Program-made: the position numbers and the translations under genes
Shown: positions 9,760-18,273 of the stretch, in pieces
Layout: each line of letters begins with the position of its first letter
Position numbering within the stretch: position 1 is the first letter of the stretch
The notes under the pieces: generated by a model
What the model was told of the DNA's origin: nothing
The model's input: only the letters and a program-made list of their open reading frames with translations
Databases searched by the model: none
Assembly (NCBI RefSeq): GCF_035621355.1
Contig: NZ_CP141769.1
Span: 310,001 to 374,000 of the forward strand
DNA: 64,000 bases
Direction of reading: 5' to 3'
DNA from: Thiobacillus sp. SCUT-2
GTDB taxonomy: Bacteria > Pseudomonadota > Gammaproteobacteria > Burkholderiales > Thiobacillaceae

Positions 9760-10233
9760 TCAGTTCACATTTTGACGAATAAAGATCGCCTGCTGAACCT
9801 TGCTAAAAACGTCTTGATACACTTGTGGGTCTTCAATCGGTTGATCATGCGCGCCGCGCATGCCATAACCACTAGATGTCTGGGTAGAGTTCACGAAATT
9901 TAGGCGAACCTTTGTGCGCCCCGGGACGATTTCTTCTACAAAGGCCGTTGCCTGTACGTCCTTCATTACTTGGCCGACAAATGGAACGAAGCTTTGTTGA
10001 GTCGGGCTTTTGGCACTAATGAGGCCGGTTTCGAGATTGGCATTTCCCACCACGTAGCCCAAGTCTTGGAACACGGATAGCGTTGATGCGAAAGCCACTT
10101 TCTTCGTCGTTTCGAATTCTTTCGCTTGGATGGCCTGTAGCTCAAGCGGAGATTTCGTTGTTTGCGGCGCCATTGCGCAGCCGCCCGTAAACAGAAGCGA
10201 CGCGATCAACGGAAATGCTAGATATTTTCTCAT
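9760..10233 (-). CDS. Small lipoprotein of unknown function
   Basis: A 157-residue lipoprotein. The signal ends in the lipobox F-T-G-G-C (Cys19), followed by A-M-A-P-Q. The mature domain contains K-V-A-F-A-S-T-L-S-V-F-Q-D-L-G-Y and L-E-T-G-L-I-S-A-K-S, a pattern seen in small envelope lipoproteins that often accompany BamE-like proteins. No catalytic motif is visible. It lies three bases downstream of a BamE-like gene, so the two are co-transcribed and end at a strong terminator. Base composition is clearly AT-richer than its neighbours, suggesting a different history. Confidence 0.8.
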   Translation of the reverse strand: MRKYLAFPLIASLLFTGGCAMAPQTTKSPLELQAIQAKEFETTKKVAFASTLSVFQDLGYVVGNANLETGLISAKSPTQQSFVPFVGQVMKDVQATAFVEEIVPGRTKVRLNFVNSTQTSSGYGMRGAHDQPIEDPQVYQDVFSKVQQAIFIRQNVN

Positions 10234-10236
10234 GGC

Positions 10237-10680
10237 TTAGAAGGAGGTCGCGTTATACGTAAAGTCAGTGACAGCGGAGTCTTTAAATTTAATAATTATG
10301 GTGAGCGTTCGTTGCGTTCGAGACGTTGCTCCACTTGCCCGGGTTGTCGAGCCTATTCCAGCCGCGCCGACATTGCCTGTCCCCCCCAAAATCAACCCGG
10401 CAATGCCGTTTTGACTTGTTGAGTATGCCGTATCCGTGCTCACCTTGTCGTAAATCCACGTCTCAATTCCATCTCGATCTTTGGTAACCATGTTTGGGGC
10501 GCCCAAAACTTTAGCCACATCTGCTTGAGACATGCCGGTTTTGATTTCCCGCTGAGCTACGCCCAGAGTGATTTTTGCCTCACTCGAATCGCCAAGTTCC
10601 CGGCGGTGATCCGCAACAGTCATGCAGCCCGCTAAGGATAAGATCCCTAGCATGGTCAAGGCTAGTTTGGTTGTTTTCAT
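10237..10680 (-). CDS. SmpA/OmlA (BamE-like) domain lipoprotein
   Basis: A 147-residue lipoprotein with lipobox L-A-G-C (Cys19). The BamE-like domain is recognised by I-K-T-G-M-S-Q-A-D-V-A-K-V-L-G-A-P, then T-W-I-Y-D-K-V. A Gly/Thr/Ser-rich insertion (I-A-G-L-I-L-G-G-T-G) precedes the last strands. It is not the housekeeping BamE, because the context is accessory and the insertion is atypical. AAGGTG is the ribosome site. It is first in a two-gene AT-rich operon on the minus strand. Function beyond envelope localisation is unknown. Confidence 0.8.
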   Translation of the reverse strand: MKTTKLALTMLGILSLAGCMTVADHRRELGDSSEAKITLGVAQREIKTGMSQADVAKVLGAPNMVTKDRDGIETWIYDKVSTDTAYSTSQNGIAGLILGGTGNVGAAGIGSTTRASGATSRTQRTLTIIIKFKDSAVTDFTYNATSF

Positions 10681-11360: not shown

Positions 11361-12689
11361 TTGGGCAACTTCAAGAAAGGCATGCAGGGCGTTCACATGG
11401 GTCGCTTCCCCACGCGGCTCGGCGTTTCTCTTGCGCAAGCGGGGCTGATCACGGCGCTGGCGTGCGCCGCGCCGGTTGCGCGGGCGGACGAGCCGCCGTC
11501 GCCCGCGCCGGGCGATCTGGCCGCGATCAAGCAGGAGCTTGCGAAGCAGGCCAGGGCCCTGGCGGAGCAGCAGCGCGAGTTGGCGATCGAGCAGAAGAAG
11601 CTGGACGCGCACCGGCAGGCGCTGGACGACAGCCGGCGCCGGCTGGCCGCGCTGCAGAAACAGCTCGGGATGGCGCCGGACGAGCCGAGGGCGGGCGACG
11701 ATGACCTGCTCGTCTCGGGCGGACAGGGCGGCGGCAGCGTACCCGAGAATCCGCCCGTCGACGTCGGCACGCTCTTCGCCCAGCCGACCATCCTGACGCC
11801 GAAGGGCGCGGTCGTCTTCGAGCCGTCGCTGCAGTACTCGTTCAGCAATTCCGATCGCGTCTCGATCGTCGGCTACAGCATCCTGCCCGCGCTGGTGATC
11901 GGCCTGATCGACGTGCGCACGGTCAGCCGCAGCACCTGGATCGCGGCAGCGGACGTGCGCTACGGGCTGACAAACCGCCTCGAACTCGAGGCCAAGGTGC
12001 CGTACGTCTATCGCTATGACGATACCTTCAGCCGGCCGCTCGACCTGAGCGGAGGGGCGACTGAGCAAATGTTCAACGCCAGCGGAAACGGCATCGGCGA
12101 TATCGAACTGGCCGCGCGCTACCAGCTGAATCTGCCGAAGGGAAACGATCCCTTCTATATCGCAGGGCTGCGGTTGAAGACGCGAACCGGCAAGGACCCG
12201 TTCGAAGTCAGCTATGCCCCCGGCAGTACGCTCATTACCGCCGGCTCACTGCAGACCGAACTGCCGACCGGCTCGGGTTTCTATACCTTGCAGCCCAGCC
12301 TGAGCATGGTCATGCCGGCCGATCCGGCCGTGTTCTACGGCGGCATCAGTTACCTCTGGAACATCAAGCGTGACATCAACAAGAACGTCGGTGGCGTCCA
12401 GATCGGGCAGGTAGACCCGGGGGACGGCGTCGATTTCAACGTGGGCATGGGGCTCGCGCTGAACGAAAGAAGTTCGTTCAGCGTCGGCTACGAGCATACC
12501 TGGATCGGCAAGAGCACGCTGAACGGCGTCACGCCGCCGACCGAGCTGACGACGCAGCTGGCCAGCCTGCTGGTCGGCTATTCCTACCGGCTCAACCAGA
12601 CCACCAGCCTCAACCTGTCGATCGGCGCCGGGCTGACCAACGACACGCCGGACACGCAGATCACGCTGCGCGTCCCGATGCGCTTCTAG
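11361..12689 (+). CDS. Outer-membrane beta-barrel protein with N-terminal coiled coil (FapF-like architecture)
   Basis: A secreted protein of about 442 residues. The signal ends near P-V-A-R-A-D (residue about 42). A heptad-rich coiled coil of about 50 residues follows (L-A-K-Q-A-R-A-L-A-E-Q-Q-R-E-L and repeats), then a D/G-rich linker, then about 270 residues of alternating beta strands ending in T-L-R-V-P-M-R-F, a typical barrel C-terminus. FapF, the amyloid exporter of Pseudomonas, also combines a helical coiled-coil segment with a barrel. The start is uncertain: TTG at 11361 has GAGGAGG at good distance, while ATGs at 11382 and 11397 lack one. It converges on the C39-peptidase group and is the likely export pore of that cluster (inference). 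Confidence 0.72.
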   Translation: MGNFKKGMQGVHMGRFPTRLGVSLAQAGLITALACAAPVARADEPPSPAPGDLAAIKQELAKQARALAEQQRELAIEQKKLDAHRQALDDSRRRLAALQKQLGMAPDEPRAGDDDLLVSGGQGGGSVPENPPVDVGTLFAQPTILTPKGAVVFEPSLQYSFSNSDRVSIVGYSILPALVIGLIDVRTVSRSTWIAAADVRYGLTNRLELEAKVPYVYRYDDTFSRPLDLSGGATEQMFNASGNGIGDIELAARYQLNLPKGNDPFYIAGLRLKTRTGKDPFEVSYAPGSTLITAGSLQTELPTGSGFYTLQPSLSMVMPADPAVFYGGISYLWNIKRDINKNVGGVQIGQVDPGDGVDFNVGMGLALNERSSFSVGYEHTWIGKSTLNGVTPPTELTTQLASLLVGYSYRLNQTTSLNLSIGAGLTNDTPDTQITLRVPMRF

Positions 12690-12722: not shown

Positions 12723-13352
12723 TCAGCGCAGGCCGGCCGCGCTCAGCTGGTTGAGCGCGGCGCCCAGCCGCATCGCGGCGGCGGCCTGCTGCATCGAGAG
12801 CGTGGCGTTCAGCACCGTGAGGTTGCGGATGACCTGGTTGTCCACCGTGTTCTGGATCACCGTGTTCAGGGCCGACAGCGACTCCGGCAGCGTGAAGTTG
12901 TTGCCCGTGCCGTTCTGGACCAGCGTCAGCACACCCTGGTTGTTGAGAATCTGGGTGGTGACGGTCGTCGGGGGCGATCCGCCTGACGCAAGCTGCGGCG
13001 GCGGGCTGCCACCGGACGGAGGCGAGGGCGCGTTGGTCACGGGGCTTGCGGGTGCAGGCGGGGGCACGCTGGCGACCCCTCCGGCCACCGGCGATGCGAC
13101 AGGGCCGAACTGCAGCGGTGTGAGCTTCATCGACGAGACGAGCTGGCCATTGACGTAGGTCAGTTGCTCCAGCGAAAAGGCCAGCGTCACCTGCATGCCG
13201 TTGAGGTTGAATTCGAAGCCGCCGCGCATGGCGTCGAGCTCGGCGTCGGTCGCCGCCGCATAGCCGTCGAAGCCCGACAGGCCGGCGTGCGCCGTTCCGC
13301 AGGCGAGCAGCGCCGCCACCGCCAGGCCGTGGGGTGTGAAATTTGTGTTCAT
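12723..13352 (-). CDS. Secreted protein with double-glycine motif and Q/N-rich C-terminal repeat; candidate C39-peptidase substrate
   Basis: A 209-residue protein with a Sec signal (A-V-A-A-L-L-A-C-G-T-A-H-A). Residues 36-45 read D-A-E-L-D-A-M-R-G-G, like the ELxxxxGG leader cut by C39 peptidases. A beta-rich stretch (F-E-F-N-L-N-G-M-Q-V-T-L) and a Pro/Gly/Ser linker (about 95-130) follow. The C-terminal part holds T-V-I-Q-N-T-V-D-N-Q-V-I-R-N, related to motifs in two neighbouring secreted proteins. I do not recognise a named family. It is last in the peptidase transcript, nine bases after the peptidase stop; a GTG at 13361 would give a slightly longer signal. Confidence 0.75.
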   Translation of the reverse strand: MNTNFTPHGLAVAALLACGTAHAGLSGFDGYAAATDAELDAMRGGFEFNLNGMQVTLAFSLEQLTYVNGQLVSSMKLTPLQFGPVASPVAGGVASVPPPAPASPVTNAPSPPSGGSPPPQLASGGSPPTTVTTQILNNQGVLTLVQNGTGNNFTLPESLSALNTVIQNTVDNQVIRNLTVLNATLSMQQAAAAMRLGAALNQLSAAGLR

Positions 13353-13361
13353 GATGGTCAC

Positions 13362-14042
13362 TCAGTAATCGCCGGGCTGCCTGCGCAGCAGGGTCGCGTT
13401 GGCGAGGCCGTCGGGCCCGCTCGCGAGGCTCAGCGGCGCCTTCTCCTTCACCCGCCAGTCCCGTGCGGCGTTGAACACCGCCTTCCGGTCGAGGCCGTTG
13501 ATGACGAAGAGAATCCTGCTCGCCATCATCTTCTCGAACTCGGGCAACGGATAGATGTGCCCGCCGAGCGAAGGGTCGCCGACGGCGACCAGGCCGTCGC
13601 GGATGCCCTTGACCACGACGAAGTGGTTGTAGCCGTTTTCGCGGATCAGCACGATGGCCGGGATGCCCACGCTGGCCAGGCGGCTGAGCGGGGCGACGTA
13701 GCCGTCGGCCGAGTAGCCGCGGCTTTGCAGGAAGTGCTTGAGGTCGAGCAGCGAGAAGCCTTCGCGGCGAATCTTCTGGTGGTCGCCGTCCTCCCACATC
13801 GCCTTGAAGATCGTGGGCTCGTCGACCGGGTCGCCATAGTGGTAGGTGAGCAGGGTGGACAGCGCCGCGGAACCGCAGCTGAAATCCAGCTCCTGCCGCA
13901 CCGTCTGCCGGAACTGGCGTTCCTTGAGGCTCTGGACCCTGACGTTGAAGCTGCCGCCGTCCACGCCGGGCACCAGCGCCGAGCCGGCCCATGCCGGAGG
14001 TGCCAGCAGCAGGACGAGCGCAAGCAGAAACCGGGCAGGCAT
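13362..14042 (-). CDS. Periplasmic C39-like cysteine peptidase (FapD-like)
   Basis: A 226-residue protein with a Sec signal (F-L-L-A-L-V-L-L-L-A-P-P-A-W-A). The peptidase C39 fold shows D-F-S-C-G-S-A-A-L with nucleophile Cys56, G-Y-N-H-F-V-V-V with His140, and V-G-D-P-S-L-G with Asp156. No ABC-transporter or membrane domain is present, so it acts alone in the periplasm, as proposed for FapD of functional-amyloid loci. Its start lies one base after the stop of the upstream small secreted protein, and the downstream gene begins at its own stop. Both flanking genes encode proteins with D-x-E-L-x-x-x-R-G-G, the plausible cleavage site. Confidence 0.85.
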   Translation of the reverse strand: MPARFLLALVLLLAPPAWAGSALVPGVDGGSFNVRVQSLKERQFRQTVRQELDFSCGSAALSTLLTYHYGDPVDEPTIFKAMWEDGDHQKIRREGFSLLDLKHFLQSRGYSADGYVAPLSRLASVGIPAIVLIRENGYNHFVVVKGIRDGLVAVGDPSLGGHIYPLPEFEKMMASRILFVINGLDRKAVFNAARDWRVKEKAPLSLASGPDGLANATLLRRQPGDY

Positions 14043-14043
14043 C

Positions 14044-14391
14044 TCACTGCACCTGCAGGTTGAGAATCGTTGCATTCTGGATCAGCACGTTGTTGCCGGA
14101 ATTCTGGATCACGGTGGAGAAGCCGGAATTGCCGGTCAGGGCGCCGTCGGTGACGTAATTGCTCCCGGTCACGCTGTCGAGCGCGGTGTTGTTGTAGACC
14201 GAGGCGTTCAGGTCGTTGAGGTTGGAAATCGTCGTCGTCCCGCCGCGGTTGCCCGCCAGTTCGGAATCGGGCACGGCCGCGGAGAACGCCGCGGGGGGCG
14301 ACGCGCCCGGCGCAGGGAGCGGGTCGGAGCGCGCCGCCGTCGCAGCGAGCAGGGCCGCTGCAGCCAGCAGGAGCAGGGTGACATGGCTCAT
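14044..14391 (-). CDS. Small secreted protein with double-glycine motif and Q/N repeat; candidate C39-peptidase substrate
   Basis: A 115-residue protein with a strong Sec signal (V-T-L-L-L-L-A-A-A-A-L-L-A-A-T-A-A). Residues 42-51 are D-S-E-L-A-G-N-R-G-G, matching the motif in the 12723-13352 product (identical D, E, L, R, G, G). After the presumed cut the mature chain is only about 64 residues, rich in N, T, S and G, and ends in T-V-I-Q-N-S-G-N-N-V-L-I-Q-N-A-T. Composition and length resemble small amyloid or pilin-like subunits. The start at 14391 has a GGAGGG ribosome site. It lies 57 bases after the glycine-rich gene in the same direction. Confidence 0.72.
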   Translation of the reverse strand: MSHVTLLLLAAAALLAATAARSDPLPAPGASPPAAFSAAVPDSELAGNRGGTTTISNLNDLNASVYNNTALDSVTGSNYVTDGALTGNSGFSTVIQNSGNNVLIQNATILNLQVQ

Positions 14392-14448: not shown

Positions 14449-16401
14449 TCAATGCACCGACAGGTTGGCTTGTACGGTCACGCCAATCTGGGTCAGCGCA
14501 TTGGCGCCGGTGTTTTGCGACACGGAGATGATGCCGGCACCGTTGGTCAGGCTGCTGCCGATGGTGTTGGAGGCATCGTAGGAGCCGGCGTTGCCGCCGG
14601 TCGAATTGCCGCCGTTGCCGCCGACGCCGCCGTTGCCCGTGGTGGCCGAGGCCATCGCGCTGCTGCTGGCGCTGCCGCCCATGCCGCCGCTGCCGCCGGA
14701 GCCGTTGGCCGTGGCGGTGCCGCCGGTACCACCGGTACCACCGGTGCCGCCTGCGCCGCCGGCCGCGCCTGCGCCGGCGACGCCGCCCTCACCGGTACCG
14801 CCGGTGCCCGTCGCGCCTGCCGCACCTGCGCCGCCCATGCTCGTCCCGGCTGCGCCGACTGCGCCGGCACCGCCCGCGCCGCCGGTGCCGGTCGCGCCGA
14901 CCGCGCCCGCACCGCCGGTGCTGGTGCCGGCCGCGCCGGTTCCCGCCGCGCCGGTGCCGGTCGCGCCGGTTGCGCCGTTGCCGGCGGTGCTGGTTCCGGT
15001 CGCGCCGGTCCCCGCCGCGCCGGTGCCGGCCGCACCGGTGCCGGTGGCGCCTGCGGCACCCGAGCCGCCCGCGCCGCCCATGCCGGCCGCCGCGGTGCTG
15101 GTGCCGGTCGCGGTGCCCGCACCGCCGGAGCCGGCGCCCGCCGTATCGGTGCTGGTGGTGCTGCCGCCGGTGGAGGTGCCGCCGCTGCCGGCGGTCGACG
15201 TGTTGTTGGTGGGCCCGTTGGCGCCGTTGCTGGACGTGCCCGCCCCGCCGCCGGTTCCGCCGCCGCCGCCGCCACCCGCGCCGCCGGTGTTGTCATTCGC
15301 CGTGGAGACCGGCACGCCGGCACTGACGCCCAGCGCGCCACCGCCATTGGCGCTGGAAGAGCCGCCGGAACTGCTGCTGCCGCTGTCGCCGCCGATGCCC
15401 TTGCCGCCCATGCTGCCGGTCATGGCCGCGCTGTCGCCGCCGATGCCCTTGCCGCCGCTCGCGCCGCTGCCGCCGTCGCCGCCGATGCCCTTGCCGCCGA
15501 CGCCGAAGCCGCCTAAGCCGCTGCCGCCCGACGCGTTGCCGGAGCTGCCGCCCGAACCGCCGTCACCGCCGTAGCCCTTGCCGCCGATGCCCAGGCCACC
15601 GAGGGCGTCGCCGGAGCTGCCGCCCGAGCCGCCGGCACCGCCGACACCTTTGCCGCCGTTGCCGCCCGAGCCGCCGGCGCCACCCATGGCGTTGCCGGGG
15701 CTGCCGCCCGAACCGCCGTCGCCACCGTAGCCCTTGCCGCCGATGCCGCCGATGGCGCCGCCGCCGTTGCCGCCGTTGCCGCCGTTGCCGGCGCTGCCGG
15801 CCATGGTGTCGCCGCCGATCGCCTTGGCATAGCCGCTGGCACCGTCACCGCCGTTGGCGCCGTAGGACTTGCTGTGCGCGTCCTGGTTGGCGTCGCCGGA
15901 ATTGCCGCCCATGCCGCCATCGCCGGCGCGGCCGCCGCCGTAGGCGGTGTTGCCGCTGGGGAAGACGACGTTGTCATGTACCTCGCCATTCAGGGTCGTC
16001 GTCGCGGTGGCGTTCACCGTCGAGTTGAACGAATCCCGATTCTGCGACTGGGTGTTGAAGGAGTCGCTGTAGTGGGTGTCGGTGTGGGTGTTGTACGAAT
16101 CCTCGACCTTGCTGATGGTCTTGTTGTGCGTACTGCTGTCCGAGTTGTTCGAATCCTTGGTGACGTTGACGGTCTTGGTGTTGGTGCTGCTATCCGAGTT
16201 GTGCGAGTCCTGCGTGGCCGTCGAATTCTCGTTGGCCGCCGCGCCGGAAAGCTTCTCCTGGGTGGAGGACGCGGTTGCGGACTGGCTGACCGTGCCGTCT
16301 TGCGACGTCGGTGAACTGTTCGTGTTGGTGGGGTTGGCCCAGGCCTGGCTTCCCATCCCCAGGGCCATGGCGATCGCACTCGCCAAGAGGGTTTTGTTCA
16401 T
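14449..16401 (-). CDS. Large glycine-rich secreted low-complexity protein
   Basis: A 650-residue protein. The signal peptide (L-L-A-S-A-I-A-M-A-L-G) is cut near Q-A-W-A-N. Residues about 23-180 are rich in N, S, T and D with recurring D-S-x-N-S-D-S-S-T-x-x-K-T units. Residues about 180-600 consist of G-G-x-G-G and G-A-x-G-T tracts, first K-G-x-G-G-D type and then A-G-T-G-A-A type. The C-terminus ends in Q-N-T-G-A-N-A-L-T-Q, related to the motif of the two small neighbours. No double-glycine leader is seen. It is probably a surface or matrix protein (adhesin, amyloid or biofilm scaffold). AAGGAG precedes the start and a sigma-54 promoter lies 74 bases upstream. Confidence 0.75.
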   Translation of the reverse strand: MNKTLLASAIAMALGMGSQAWANPTNTNSSPTSQDGTVSQSATASSTQEKLSGAAANENSTATQDSHNSDSSTNTKTVNVTKDSNNSDSSTHNKTISKVEDSYNTHTDTHYSDSFNTQSQNRDSFNSTVNATATTTLNGEVHDNVVFPSGNTAYGGGRAGDGGMGGNSGDANQDAHSKSYGANGGDGASGYAKAIGGDTMAGSAGNGGNGGNGGGAIGGIGGKGYGGDGGSGGSPGNAMGGAGGSGGNGGKGVGGAGGSGGSSGDALGGLGIGGKGYGGDGGSGGSSGNASGGSGLGGFGVGGKGIGGDGGSGASGGKGIGGDSAAMTGSMGGKGIGGDSGSSSSGGSSSANGGGALGVSAGVPVSTANDNTGGAGGGGGGGTGGGAGTSSNGANGPTNNTSTAGSGGTSTGGSTTSTDTAGAGSGGAGTATGTSTAAAGMGGAGGSGAAGATGTGAAGTGAAGTGATGTSTAGNGATGATGTGAAGTGAAGTSTGGAGAVGATGTGGAGGAGAVGAAGTSMGGAGAAGATGTGGTGEGGVAGAGAAGGAGGTGGTGGTGGTATANGSGGSGGMGGSASSSAMASATTGNGGVGGNGGNSTGGNAGSYDASNTIGSSLTNGAGIISVSQNTGANALTQIGVTVQANLSVH

Positions 16402-16474: not shown

Positions 16475-16490
16475 TGCACCTTCCGTGCCA
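16475..16490 (-). promoter_or_regulatory. Sigma-54 (-24/-12) promoter of the glycine-rich/C39 gene group
   Basis: On the minus strand the site reads TGGCACGGAAGGTGCA. It matches TGGCACG-N4-TTGCA at all but one position and keeps the GG-N10-GC spacing. It lies 74 bases before the start at 16401 and faces away from a VpsR-like sigma-54 activator gene. Confidence 0.72.
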
Positions 16491-16620: not shown

Positions 16621-16887
16621 CTCGCGGGATCAGGTGCTTGGACGCATCCGGCAGGCGCGGCGTCGAAGTGTTCAATTCCTGCGACACCCGGTCGTCCCGC
16701 GGGATCGCGGTCGGCCGCAAAAAAGCAAGAGACGTGCACGCTCGCAAAACTTTCCTATAGTGACGCATTGCTTCGCAGCAGTTGATCCAGCGGGTGCCAC
16801 GCCAAGGCGCTGCAGTACGGGATGGCGACGTCCCGGCGGCGACGGTCATGCCTTCGTGTCGAGGCCGCGTGACGAGCAGGAGGAGTG

Positions 16888-18273
16888 ATGTCGAGACGGG
16901 ATGTAATCGTGCACGCCGCCGCGCCCTGGCGGACGCAACTCATGGGCGTGCTGGCGGAAGCGGGATGGCGGCCGCTGGCGCTGGGCGAGTTCACCGACCT
17001 GCCGGGCGAGCGACGGCAGGACGTGCATGTCGGGGTGGTGAGGCTGGGCCGCGCCGACGATGCCGAGATCGACGCCCTGGACGAACTGATGGCGAGCCGG
17101 CCGGAAATCGAGTGGGTCGCGCTGGTGCCGACGGCCGCGCTGCCGAATCCCCGCGTCGGCCGCTTCCTGCGCCACCGCTGCTTCGACTTCCACACCCTGC
17201 CGATCGACACCCCCCACTTTCTCGCCACGCTCGGCCATGCCGAGGGCAAGGCCCGGCTGCCGAGCGGCGGCGCGGCGGGTTGCGAGGCCGAGGGTTGCTG
17301 CGGGATGATCGGGCACAGCCCGGCGATGCGAGACCTGTATGCGGCGATCCGGAAGGCGAGCGCCGTCGAGGCGCCGGTGATGATCAGCGGCGAAAGCGGT
17401 ACCGGGAAGGAACTGGTCGCGCGCGCGATCCACCAGCTTTCGCCGCGGCGGGACGGCCCGTTCATCGCCGTGAACTGCGCGGCGCTGCCGGCGAACCTGA
17501 TCCAGGCCGAACTGTTCGGCCACGAAAAGGGCGCGTTCACCGGCGCCTACCAGCGCAAGATCGGCCGCCTCGAGGCGGCGGCAGGCGGCACGATCTTTCT
17601 CGACGAGATCGGCGACCTGCCGCTGGAGATGCAGGTCACGCTGCTGCACGTGCTGCAGGACAAGGTGATCGAACGACTCGGCTCCAACCGCGAGATCCGC
17701 CTCGACGTGCGGGTGATCGCCGCGAGCCATGTGGAACTCGAGCAGGCCGTCGCCGACGCCCACTTCCGGGCCGACCTCTACTACCGCATCAACGTCATCC
17801 GGCTCCGCACCCCGGCGCTGCGCGATCGCGAGGAGGACGTGGAACGGCTCGCCCGCGCCTATCTCGAGCGCTTCCTGCCGGAGTCGCGCGGGGGGGTGCG
17901 CGGCTTCAGCCGCCAGGCGCTGACGGTGATGGCCAATTACGAGTGGCCGGGCAACGTTCGCGAACTCATCAATCGCGTGCGGCAGGCCGTCGTGCTGAGC
18001 GAGAACCGGCTGCTCACGCCACGCGACCTCGGGCTGGAAAAGCGCGTCTCGAGCGAGGGGTTCATGACCCTCGAGGAGGCGCGCTCGCGCGCGGAGCACG
18101 ACACGATCCGCCGCGCGCTGCGGCGCAACCAGAACAACGTCGCGGCGGCCGCACGCCAGCTGGGCATCTCGCGGGCGACGCTGTACCGGCTGCTGGTGCG
18201 CGTGTCGCATGCCGGCGCGGCGGTCCATCCGGAGTTCCCGCACGCGGTGTCGATGGCCGGTCGCGCGGACTGA
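16888..18273 (+). CDS. VpsR-like sigma-54-dependent transcriptional activator
   Basis: A 461-residue enhancer-binding protein. Residues 1-125 form a degenerate receiver-like domain with W-V-A-L-V-P and F-D-F-H-T-L-P-I-D, the VpsR signature. The AAA+ domain has Walker A G-E-S-G-T-G-K-E (168-175), the sigma-54 contact loop G-A-F-T-G-A (215-220) and Walker B F-L-D-E. The C-terminal Fis-type helix-turn-helix contains N-N-V-A-A-A-A-R-Q-L-G-I-S-R-A-T-L-Y. VpsR-family activators respond to cyclic di-GMP and switch on biofilm matrix genes. Divergence from a sigma-54 promoter at 16475 makes the glycine-rich/C39 cluster its probable target. The start has a CAGGAGGA ribosome site. Confidence 0.86.
   Translation: MSRRDVIVHAAAPWRTQLMGVLAEAGWRPLALGEFTDLPGERRQDVHVGVVRLGRADDAEIDALDELMASRPEIEWVALVPTAALPNPRVGRFLRHRCFDFHTLPIDTPHFLATLGHAEGKARLPSGGAAGCEAEGCCGMIGHSPAMRDLYAAIRKASAVEAPVMISGESGTGKELVARAIHQLSPRRDGPFIAVNCAALPANLIQAELFGHEKGAFTGAYQRKIGRLEAAAGGTIFLDEIGDLPLEMQVTLLHVLQDKVIERLGSNREIRLDVRVIAASHVELEQAVADAHFRADLYYRINVIRLRTPALRDREEDVERLARAYLERFLPESRGGVRGFSRQALTVMANYEWPGNVRELINRVRQAVVLSENRLLTPRDLGLEKRVSSEGFMTLEEARSRAEHDTIRRALRRNQNNVAAAARQLGISRATLYRLLVRVSHAGAAVHPEFPHAVSMAGRAD

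Follow-up and report, generated by a model that had tools for sequence, protein, structure and literature searches.

Organization of the Locus

The window, that is, the whole stretch of 64,000 nucleotides that was analyzed, harbors a Fap-like amyloid secretion locus that encodes a Gly-rich protein, a small secreted protein (A), a C39 peptidase, and a FapE-like protein (E), together with a convergent FapF-like pore. A short element, here called the tag, lies ahead of the bodies of A and E and is numbered backwards from its last residue (-1). The features are:

11397..12689, + strand: FapF-like outer-membrane pore with signal, coiled coil, linker, and beta barrel; convergent with E
12723..13352, - strand: protein E, FapE-like and secreted, with Sec signal, tag, beta-rich region, and C-terminal VIQN-type module; start at the Met at 13352 (the listed open reading frame begins at GTG 13361)
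13218..13247, - strand: tag of protein E, DAELDAMRGG (-10 to -1), residues 36-45 counted from the ATG at 13352
13362..14042, - strand: C39 cysteine peptidase with Sec signal, FapD/FilB-like, with Cys56, His140, and Asp156; between the genes for E and A
14044..14391, - strand: protein A, small and secreted, with Sec signal, tag, and conserved C-terminal domain with VIQNSGNNVLIQNATILN-like end
14239..14268, - strand: tag of protein A, DSELAGNRGG (-10 to -1), residues 42-51 counted from the ATG at 14391
14449..16401, - strand: large Gly/Asn/Ser-rich secreted protein (Met at 16401)
16475..16490, - strand: possible, weak sigma-54 promoter element, TGGCAC-N5-GTGCA with one mismatch, upstream of the gene for the Gly-rich protein (the number of such matches across the window was equalled or exceeded in 5 of 100 shuffles)
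16885..18273, + strand: sigma-54 activator with VpsR domain; divergent, a possible locus regulator

The peptidase matches PF03412 with 61.7 bits (cut-off 22; E 8e-17) and contains Cys56, in agreement with the preliminary description of this neighbor as a C39 peptidase. Q61, C67, H151, and D167 (numbered from the Met at 14075) are invariant in 18 sequences; the Cys, His, and Asp among them, which become Cys56, His140, and Asp156 when counted from the Met at 14042, and the upstream Gln are predicted to be catalytic by analogy. In sequence and fold, the protein resembles LahT, PCAT1, and ComA, chains of which were the best PDB matches of its structural model (pLDDT 70.7). A conserved substrate groove was considered as further support and rejected, the PCAT1 knot residues Ala55 and Ile59 aligning with Leu and Lys (by eye), a point against the cleavage reading given below. 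With 136 bits against the FapD equivalog NF058616 (cut-off 330 not reached), the protein is related to but not filed as FapD, and the next best curated match is FilB NF050078 (116 bits, cut-off 475 not reached; E 1.5e-33). Judged by these profiles, the peptidase is a FapD/FilB relative.

The Gly-rich protein is probably the main fibre subunit. No tag was seen after its signal peptide, and the tag pattern occurred in 2 of 27 Gly-rich proteins, as chance-like matches. Its C-terminal module is weakly common to protein A, and A and E have a C-terminal VIQN-type module in common (hhalign probability 91, 34 columns). Protein E yielded no PDB relative (best match E 0.63); its low-confidence model (mean pLDDT 53) has a helix at residues 36-43 (-10 to -3) and a strand from residue 46 (+1), a helix-then-strand arrangement around the tag that is suggestive only.

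Conservation of the Tag

A motif common to both secreted neighbors of the C39 peptidase had been proposed from the two window proteins, and it stands at the positions claimed, with six of ten residues identical (D, E, L, R, G, G) and both tags ending in GG. The distance from the signal peptide, which was also said to be shared, is equal only approximately, as the tag lies by eye about 13 (E) versus about 20 (A) residues past the likely Sec cut. In E, the core reads L(-7)...R(-3)G(-2)G(-1) and is followed by Phe(+1); window E has Ala at -12 and Met at -4, and window A has Val and Asn at these positions.

The tag is real and far above chance. Ahead of the body, [LMIV]xxx[RTSKQ]G was found in 66 of 67 unique E open reading frames (the one without it is a fragment of 60 residues) and, among A open reading frames collected with a C-terminal HMM that is blind to the tag, in 51 of 53, such that 117 of the 120 unique A and E members fit the pattern with its Gly at -2 (required by the search). 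Within the 45 residues before the C-terminal domain, 39 of 52 A homologues contain LxxxRG (1000 shuffles: mean 1.0, maximum 6), and [LM]xxx[RTS]G occurs in the same region in 51 of the 52 (1000 shuffles: mean 4.1, maximum 11). In an alignment of 16 E proteins, L39, R43, G44, and G45 are the only invariant residues before the body. The motif is thus not lost in orthologues encoded beside the peptidase but is kept as a looser pattern.

Identical open reading frames were merged in these counts and in the position profiles, and E matches below 43 bits and A matches below 58 bits were left out, with cut-offs set at the gap between families (which dropped one locus, L070, with LATQTGK). The A HMM was built from seeds not chosen with the motif, while that for E used 51 motif-selected seeds, at least 16 of the 67 members not being seeds. 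A fully motif-blind E search starting from window E alone was rejected, as its profile shifted upstream and gathered other proteins as well; the resulting count of 8 of 76 under a position rule is an artefact of where the profile looked, and a looser test of the same set, anywhere in the open reading frame, gave [LM]xxx[RTS]G in 72 and LxxxRG in 68 of 76. The case for conservation rests on the blind A set, the held-out loci described below, and, for E, the HMM-based count with its motif-selected seeds. At 50 % identity, the post-motif parts of the 66 tagged E proteins form 40 clusters and the 51 A proteins a single one; at 70 %, the A proteins form 31 clusters. The A sequences are therefore far from independent.

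Among the 117 tagged proteins, -7 is Leu in 112 and Met in 5 (L, M, I, and V being allowed) and -3 is kept as Arg in E and as Arg, Thr, or Ser in A, a constancy that is partly by construction, since the search pattern set the -7 and -3 classes and the Gly at -2. Of the positions left free in the search, -12 is hydrophobic in 86 % of the 66 E and 80 % of the 51 A proteins, -4 in 83 % of E and 24 % of A (the low A value counting against the cleavage reading given below), and -15 in 65 % of E; E nearly never has hydrophobic residues at -11 to -9, -6, or -5. The hydrophobic residue at -12 is absent from the preliminary description.

The likeness to a double-glycine leader proposed there is strengthened by the residues at -12 and -7. 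Of the Glu-Leu pair whose invariance was to be tested, the Leu at -7 is kept and the Glu at -8 is not (22 of 66 E, 11 of 51 A), and the GG is not invariant either, because the free position -1 is Gly in 86 of 117, Ala in one, and R, K, or Q in the remainder. Asp(-10) is likewise not conserved (36 of 66 E, 9 of 51 A). The exact DxELxxxRGG was rejected as the conserved unit because it is rare among tagged homologues, at 9 of 66 E and 2 of 51 A proteins; what is conserved is thus looser than the motif first described. Two features of -1 count against reading the tag as a cleavage site: 16 of 66 E proteins have R or K there, unlike the small residues of known C39 sites, and within 14 of 49 loci A and E differ at this position.

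Linkage to the Peptidase Gene

Neighborhoods were compared in 78 stretches (40 + 20 regions, 17 loci, and the window), which are part of the hits, the remainder being mostly weaker. A same-strand tagged open reading frame lies within 1.2 kb of the C39 gene in 74 of 81 copies, compared with 4 of 81 for antisense and 21 of 81 for same-strand frames farther off; two of the 7 copies without a nearby tagged frame (L041, L094) have tagged A and E by the HMM count. These counts are by C39 copy and include a few repeats (L034 and L093 represent one contig, as do L046 and L105, and two copies each occur in L057, L079, and L088). In held-out loci, a tagged frame was found near C39 in 15 of 25 and antisense in 2 of 25; at one of them (L143), one of two matches is the N-terminus of the peptidase itself and the other an E-type protein.

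At the level of genomes, E found with a profile without the tag is accompanied by C39 in 31 of 32, versus 54 of 399 genomes overall, and in the lone E genome without C39, E lies at a contig edge. All 18 genomes with A have C39. Counting against strict linkage, 23 of the 54 C39 genomes gave no E-profile match, although some of them have an E-type protein by the E HMM (G367, G253, and G170, corresponding to L060, L063, and L064).

A FapF-type pore open reading frame is present in each of the 78 stretches. The window pore scores 141 bits against the FapF equivalog NF058560 (cut-off 700 not reached). Among the 44 pores that could be scored by a recognizable barrel start (of 72 unique pore open reading frames), 17 have a form of the tag in the linker, with hydrophobic or Ala at -12, L or M at -7, R at -3, and G or A at -2 (500 shuffles: mean 2.2, maximum 8; Ala at -2 in 7 of the 17), and plain LxxxRG occurs in 12 of the 44 linkers (shuffled mean 2.2, maximum 7). 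The linker of the window pore has no tag, a point against the cleavage reading. With only 17 of 44 matching, the pore linker was rejected as a universal third substrate, and the tagged linker is a clade-limited lead.

Relation to Fap, Fil, and Double-Glycine Leaders

As in Fap (fapABCDEF), a Sec-exported C39 peptidase adjoins a FapE-like protein and a coiled-coil/beta-barrel pore in the window. Unlike in Fap, the window peptidase, pore, and E fall below the NCBIfam equivalog cut-offs, a large Gly-rich subunit stands in place of FapB/FapC along with the tagged protein A, and the tags end in GG rather than in the GR or GK of FapE tags. Window E itself had no match to FapE NF058559 at E <= 1 and is connected by distant homology via the E-family HMM only. 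In the two loci tested (L085, L089), E-family proteins exceed the FapE cut-off of 250 with 351 and 347 bits, and these FapE proteins carry the tag E[LM]AxLRG[KR]Y. With a FapD/FilB relative and a tag in proteins above the FapE cut-off, the idea applies to a system that has been studied.

The catalytic Cys of FapD is required for FapC secretion, which was abolished by FapD C38A (PMC5557850). The published mass spectrometry coverage lacks the FapE N-terminus and includes FapA-D (PMC5557850), with which the untagged Gly-rich proteins agree. Two points from the same report count against the tag in Fap: the unseen FapE stretch is about 70 residues long and extends past the tag site, and Rouse et al. 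describe the Fap proteins as being without canonical C39 sequences (PMC5557850). Papers of 2017 and 2018 described the substrate of FapD as unclear or undetermined (PMC5557850, PMC6173800), and a review of December 2025 states that FapD is “thought to process” FapE and FapF (PMC12822426). Our literature search found no published FapD recognition motif.

For C39 leaders, the consensus is reported as L(-12)xxxE(-8)L(-7)xxxxG(-2)G(-1), with L-7, L-12, and -4 important (PMC6959990); LahT dispenses with E-8 and is tolerant at -3 (PMC6363468). Since the Leu residues at -7 and -12 are those that ABC-transporter C39 domains need (PMC6959990, PMC6363468), the leader analogy is stronger than the preliminary description could know. 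The window system is like that of PCAT/AMS C39 proteins (PCAT1, LahT, ComA) in the peptidase fold, the catalytic residues, and the leader spacing of -12, -7, -4, and -2 (PMC6959990, PMC6363468). It differs in that the peptidase is free-standing and Sec-exported with no fused ABC transporter, that the tag follows a Sec signal instead of being the export signal itself, and that -1 need not be Gly and -3 is Arg.

The putative FilA/FilB/FilC pilus system offers a further parallel, as FilA/DUF6160 proteins have an analogous tag behind a Sec-like signal, mostly with M-12, L-7, V-4, G-2, and Q-1. In contrast to the window tags, -3 is unconstrained, with S, T, H, N, R, V, and other residues, -1 is mostly Gln, and many tagged genes lie off the protease contig in two genomes. 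Two genomes contain 15 and 17 scattered matches to the FilA/DUF6160 variant, and with a corrected pattern the tag is present in 19 of 19 DUF6160 copies of G894 and G1002. Reading 30 of 43 DUF6160 matches by eye revealed the tag in 29, two with Ala at -2 and two with Glu at -1; the matches of one genome (G772) are under the Pfam cut-off. Because the Pfam model spans the tag region, presence of the tag in DUF6160 is not evidence by itself; the evidence consists of co-occurrence with FilB and of unrelated bodies. DUF6160 occurs in 5 of 274 genomes, which are the five with the best FilB matches (the threshold was picked after viewing the list, and 39 further genomes match FilB more weakly and are without DUF6160). 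The bodies are mostly unrelated, 166 of 171 pairs being without a match after the tag.

Proposed Mechanism and Alternatives

We consider it quite probable that the neighboring periplasmic C39 peptidase recognizes the tag and cleaves A and E there, after Sec cleavage. Support comes, at the level of sequence, from conservation, position, peptidase linkage, and fit to the known leader consensus, and we infer a two-step maturation of both proteins. Sec would export A and E, and their signal peptides would be removed. In the periplasm, by analogy with ABC-transporter C39 domains, the stretch from about -12 to -4 may form a small helix that docks on the C39 domain with its hydrophobic side chains at -12, -7, and, in E, -4. 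The Gly(-2) region would then enter the active site, where Cys56/His140/Asp156 would cut and release an N-terminal pro-piece. Cleavage may free the bodies of A and E for exit via the FapF-like pore or license the pore, and either would allow export of the untagged Gly-rich main subunit. The scheme would amount to double-glycine leader processing moved to the periplasm, behind a Sec signal.

Some type I exporters, for example HlyB, have inactive C39-like domains, and it is conceivable, albeit improbable, that the C39 protein binds the tag without cutting, keeping A and E unfolded or passing them to the pore, and that its triad serves another substrate. C39-like chaperone domains have indeed been considered for FapD (PMC6173800, PMC5135000), and the variable -1 would be easier to explain; yet none of the four catalytic residues (Cys, His, Asp, and Gln) varies across the 18 sequences, FapD C38A abolished FapC secretion (PMC5557850), and the Gly at -2 in 117 of 120 proteins fits the demands of an active site better than simple binding.

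We regard it as rather more doubtful still that the tag targets its carriers to the FapF-like pore and is linked to C39 through shared operon membership only. Such a role would compare with that of the N-terminal secretion signal of curli subunits, and the position behind the Sec signal and the pore frame in every stretch would suit it. The Gly-rich main subunit must cross the same pore, yet has no tag; moreover, 17 of 44 scorable relatives have a form of the tag within the linker of the pore itself, and the residues of the tag are spaced as in C39 leaders.

That the tag is a structural part of A and E bodies derived from one ancestor, unlinked to the protease, appears highly unlikely: the VIQN-type module makes the two possible distant relatives, but Gly-rich proteins weakly share the module and not the tag, FilA/DUF6160-type proteins with mostly unrelated bodies carry an equivalent tag, the tag form recurs in the pore linker at some loci, and C39 co-occurs with E and A almost without exception. 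Cutting at the tag by another periplasmic protease, with C39 acting elsewhere, for example only on the pore, is the least likely reading: Rouse et al. proposed FapF as a substrate too (PMC5557850), but the tag fits the C39 leader consensus and the C39 gene co-occurs.

Significance

Under the cleavage reading, double-glycine leader recognition, known from cytosolic ABC-transporter domains, would be a second, periplasmic maturation step. Fap, Fap-like, and Fil systems may even follow a general Gram-negative two-step export code, combining a Sec signal and a C39-type tag with a free periplasmic C39 peptidase and extending to multi-target and pore-linker cutting, a generalization that we put forward tentatively and judge a little short of an even chance. 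If true, one peptidase would in some genomes act on numerous tagged proteins of the DUF6160 type, which are unlinked and differ in their unrelated bodies, and in some loci its cuts would extend to the linker of its own pore. As FapD activity is needed for secretion of the Fap amyloid, the tag offers a concrete and testable answer to what FapD cuts, and with the site kept in FapE and two further protein classes, a simple mutational and mass-spectrometry test is at hand. If the reading is correct, the tag would also serve as a search pattern for unknown biofilm proteins.

The locus and its relatives

The locus spans 11.4-18.3 kb of the window and is transcribed on the minus strand in the order Gly/Asn/Ser-rich protein, protein A, C39 peptidase, protein E, with gene starts and signal peptides assigned by simple rules:

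16401-14449 (-), large Gly/Asn/Ser-rich secreted protein
14391-14044 (-), protein A, small, secreted
14042-13362 (-), C39 peptidase with a Sec signal
13352-12723 (-), protein E, secreted
11397-12689 (+), coiled-coil/beta-barrel protein, convergent with E
16885-18273 (+), sigma-54 activator with a VpsR domain, divergent

A sigma-54-like promoter element with one mismatch lies at 16475-16490 (-), roughly 75 bases 5' of the Gly-rich gene and next to the divergent activator; the overall number of such matches in the window is not clearly above chance. At 9760-10680 (-), divergent from the pore gene and upstream of it, are two small genes that look lipoprotein-like by eye; one of them matches BamE weakly, under the cut-off. 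Among curated families, the peptidase best matches FapD (136 bits, cut-off 330) and FilB (116 bits, cut-off 475), and the barrel protein FapF (141 bits, cut-off 700). With every score under its cut-off, the locus is by this measure related to the Fap amyloid system without being a member of it. The SCUT-2 genome is a single contig of 3.0 Mb; the nearest named relative of its peptidase comes from a Hydrogenophilales MAG (88% identity over residues 3-237), whose A and E have near-identical tags.

A conserved tag in A and E

The ten-residue strings DAELDAMRGG in E and DSELAGNRGG in A, reported in the preliminary description, are present where they had been placed and have six positions in common. 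Their conservation was followed in 78 stretches around peptidase relatives of 33-100% identity (the window plus three sets of 40 regions, 20 regions and 17 loci, the matches left out being mostly weaker ones), with ORFs called stop to stop. An HMM of the C-terminal domain of A alone, grown from the window sequence (cut-off 58 bits), retrieved 53 unique members, 51 of which carry [LMIV]xxx[RTSKQ]G ahead of that domain; the others are a fragment and the A of locus L045, reading LADLGGQ. E was searched with an HMM of the post-motif part (cut-off 43 bits) built on 51 motif-selected seeds, and the tag was present in 66 of 67 unique members, the sole miss being a 60-residue fragment. When 15 E proteins from named contigs were aligned with that of the window, no residue ahead of the body was invariant except L39, R43, G44 and G45. 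LxxxRG occurs in the A region of 39/52 sequences as compared to a mean of 1.0/52 after residue shuffling. Regarding kinship, clustering at 50% identity splits the 66 E sequences into 40 groups and puts the 51 A sequences into a single one; at 70% the A sequences make 31. At L079, the unit A-C39-E is tandemly duplicated in nearly identical copies.

Comparison with C39 leaders

With the residue that follows the pattern's Gly counted as -1, the search itself fixed Gly -2 and which residues were allowed at -7 and -3. The E seeds additionally had F/Y at +1, so that constancy at all these positions is partly by construction. At search-free positions, E tags (n=66) are hydrophobic at -15 (65%), -12 (86%) and -4 (83%), and hardly ever from -11 to -9 or at -6 and -5; they have Leu (63) or Met (3) at -7, Arg at -3 throughout, and G50, R13, K3 at -1. 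A tags (n=51) are hydrophobic at -12 in 80% but at -4 in just 24%, with Leu (49) or Met (2) at -7, R41, T7, S3 at -3, and G36, R9, Q3, K2, A1 at -1. Nine loci (L043, L044, L050, L051, L054, L056, L057, L079, L080) combine an A bearing Thr/Ser at -3 (TGQ, TGK, TGR, SGR) with an E that retains Arg; at L057 the peptidase is present twice. In a low-confidence model of E, residues -10 to -3 are helical and the first strand starts at +1.

From the helix register, cleavage would be expected after -1, making R/K/Q the P1 residue in 16/66 E and 14/51 A. The P1 residue of known C39 sites is small. Were the cut instead after Gly(-2), P1 would remain Gly and P2 would be Arg, with the register shifted by one. 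Since A and E differ at -1 in 14 of the 49 loci having both, one enzyme would need to accept both.

Leaders of ABC-transporter C39 substrates follow the consensus L(-12)xxxE(-8)L(-7)xxxxG(-2)G(-1) (PMC6959990) and form a short helix, -10 to -4, held in a hydrophobic groove (PMC6959990; PMC6363468). Both leucines, -7 and -12, matter and specificity is tuned by -4 (PMC6959990), while in LahT Glu -8 is changeable and -3 accepts Tyr, Phe, Lys or Glu (PMC6363468). As far as sequence can tell, the tag pattern is that of C39 leaders. Of the E-L element originally emphasized together with Gly, profile and published leader data therefore uphold Leu and Gly, whereas Glu is incidental; the third part that matters is -12, a position previously unmentioned. 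Searches of the open-access literature, among it PMC5557850, PMC6173800, PMC5135000, PMC3792158, PMC6173795, PMC12822426, PMC10638192 and PMC3223724, yielded neither a report of the tag nor a recognition motif for FapD or FilB.

Linkage to the peptidase

A fixed pattern (hydrophobic/Ala -12, L/M -7, R/T/S -3, G -2, then G/R/K/Q/A, behind a hydrophobic stretch) matched within 1.2 kb of 74/81 C39 copies on the same strand and 4/81 antisense, as compared to 21 and 11 farther away. At least two near same-strand matches occurred at 45/81 copies, two antisense at none; among the seven copies lacking one, L041 and L094 have HMM-found tagged A and E. In 25 held-out loci, from genomes with previously unused neighbourhoods and limited to 1.5-kb flanks, 15 had a same-strand and two an antisense match. 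Four of the remaining ten are FilB-type genomes, in which DUF6160 genes are located elsewhere or vary at -3.

A tag-free E-body profile matched 32/399 genomes of the order, 31 of them among the 54 with C39 (Fisher p 2e-30, kinship ignored); the sole exception has its E at a contig edge. The other 23 C39 genomes gave no match to this profile, and some of them do encode E-type proteins according to the post-motif HMM. A is present in 18/250 genomes, all 18 with C39.

Proposed processing and alternatives

On the best reading, A and E would be exported by Sec and trimmed by signal peptidase, whereupon the C39 peptidase would dock on the tag and cut at its Gly, either releasing A and E to the pore or priming it for the Gly-rich subunit. 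Common descent was weighed against this, as A and E have a 34-column C-terminal module in common (hhalign 91%) and are thus not fully independent witnesses; however, the module also occurs, weakly, in the untagged Gly-rich proteins, which makes simple inheritance of the tag less likely. The other rivals considered were docking without cutting, pore targeting and another protease.

Gly/Asn-rich upstream ORFs with a recognisable signal peptide lack the tag (in 2/27 the 80 residues that follow contain a [LM]xxx[RTS]G that looks like chance), which fits published mass spectrometry in which FapA-D were covered throughout and the FapE N-terminus alone was missing (PMC5557850). In the pore linker, a form of the pattern occurs in 17/44 scorable relatives (shuffled mean 2.2, maximum 8), seven of the 17 with Ala at -2; the window's linker has none. 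GG/GA motifs and missing peptides were described for the FapF linker by Rouse et al. (PMC5557850).

Reach beyond the locus

Rouse et al. described Fap proteins as being without canonical C39 sequences (PMC5557850). By position-specific criteria, FapE does appear to have a C39-type sequence, save at -1: in the two loci tested, proteins above the NCBIfam cut-off of 250 (351 and 347 bits) carry EMAELRGRY and ELAQLRGKY.

In FilB-type loci, the FilA/DUF6160 tag is mostly M-12, L-7, V-4, G-2, Q-1. DUF6160 occurs in 5/274 genomes of the class (four above the cut-off), which are also the five strongest of 44 genomes with FilB matches (E < 1e-60, next best 8e-38; hypergeometric p 8e-11, threshold chosen afterwards). 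Another genome, G806, has seven FilB-like C39 matches (E 2e-16 to 1e-14) on several contigs. Genomes G894 and G1002 have 15 and 17 DUF6160 matches spread over many contigs. The 19 copies read (L109, L111, L114, L115, L119, L120, L123-L126, L128, L129, L131-L137) have signal peptide and tag in common, the remainder mostly not, and 166/171 pairs of their post-tag parts are without a match at E 1e-3. The DUF6160 proteins of both genomes are candidates for processing in trans by a single FilB-like peptidase, and a common N-terminus on unrelated bodies looks like a processing signal.
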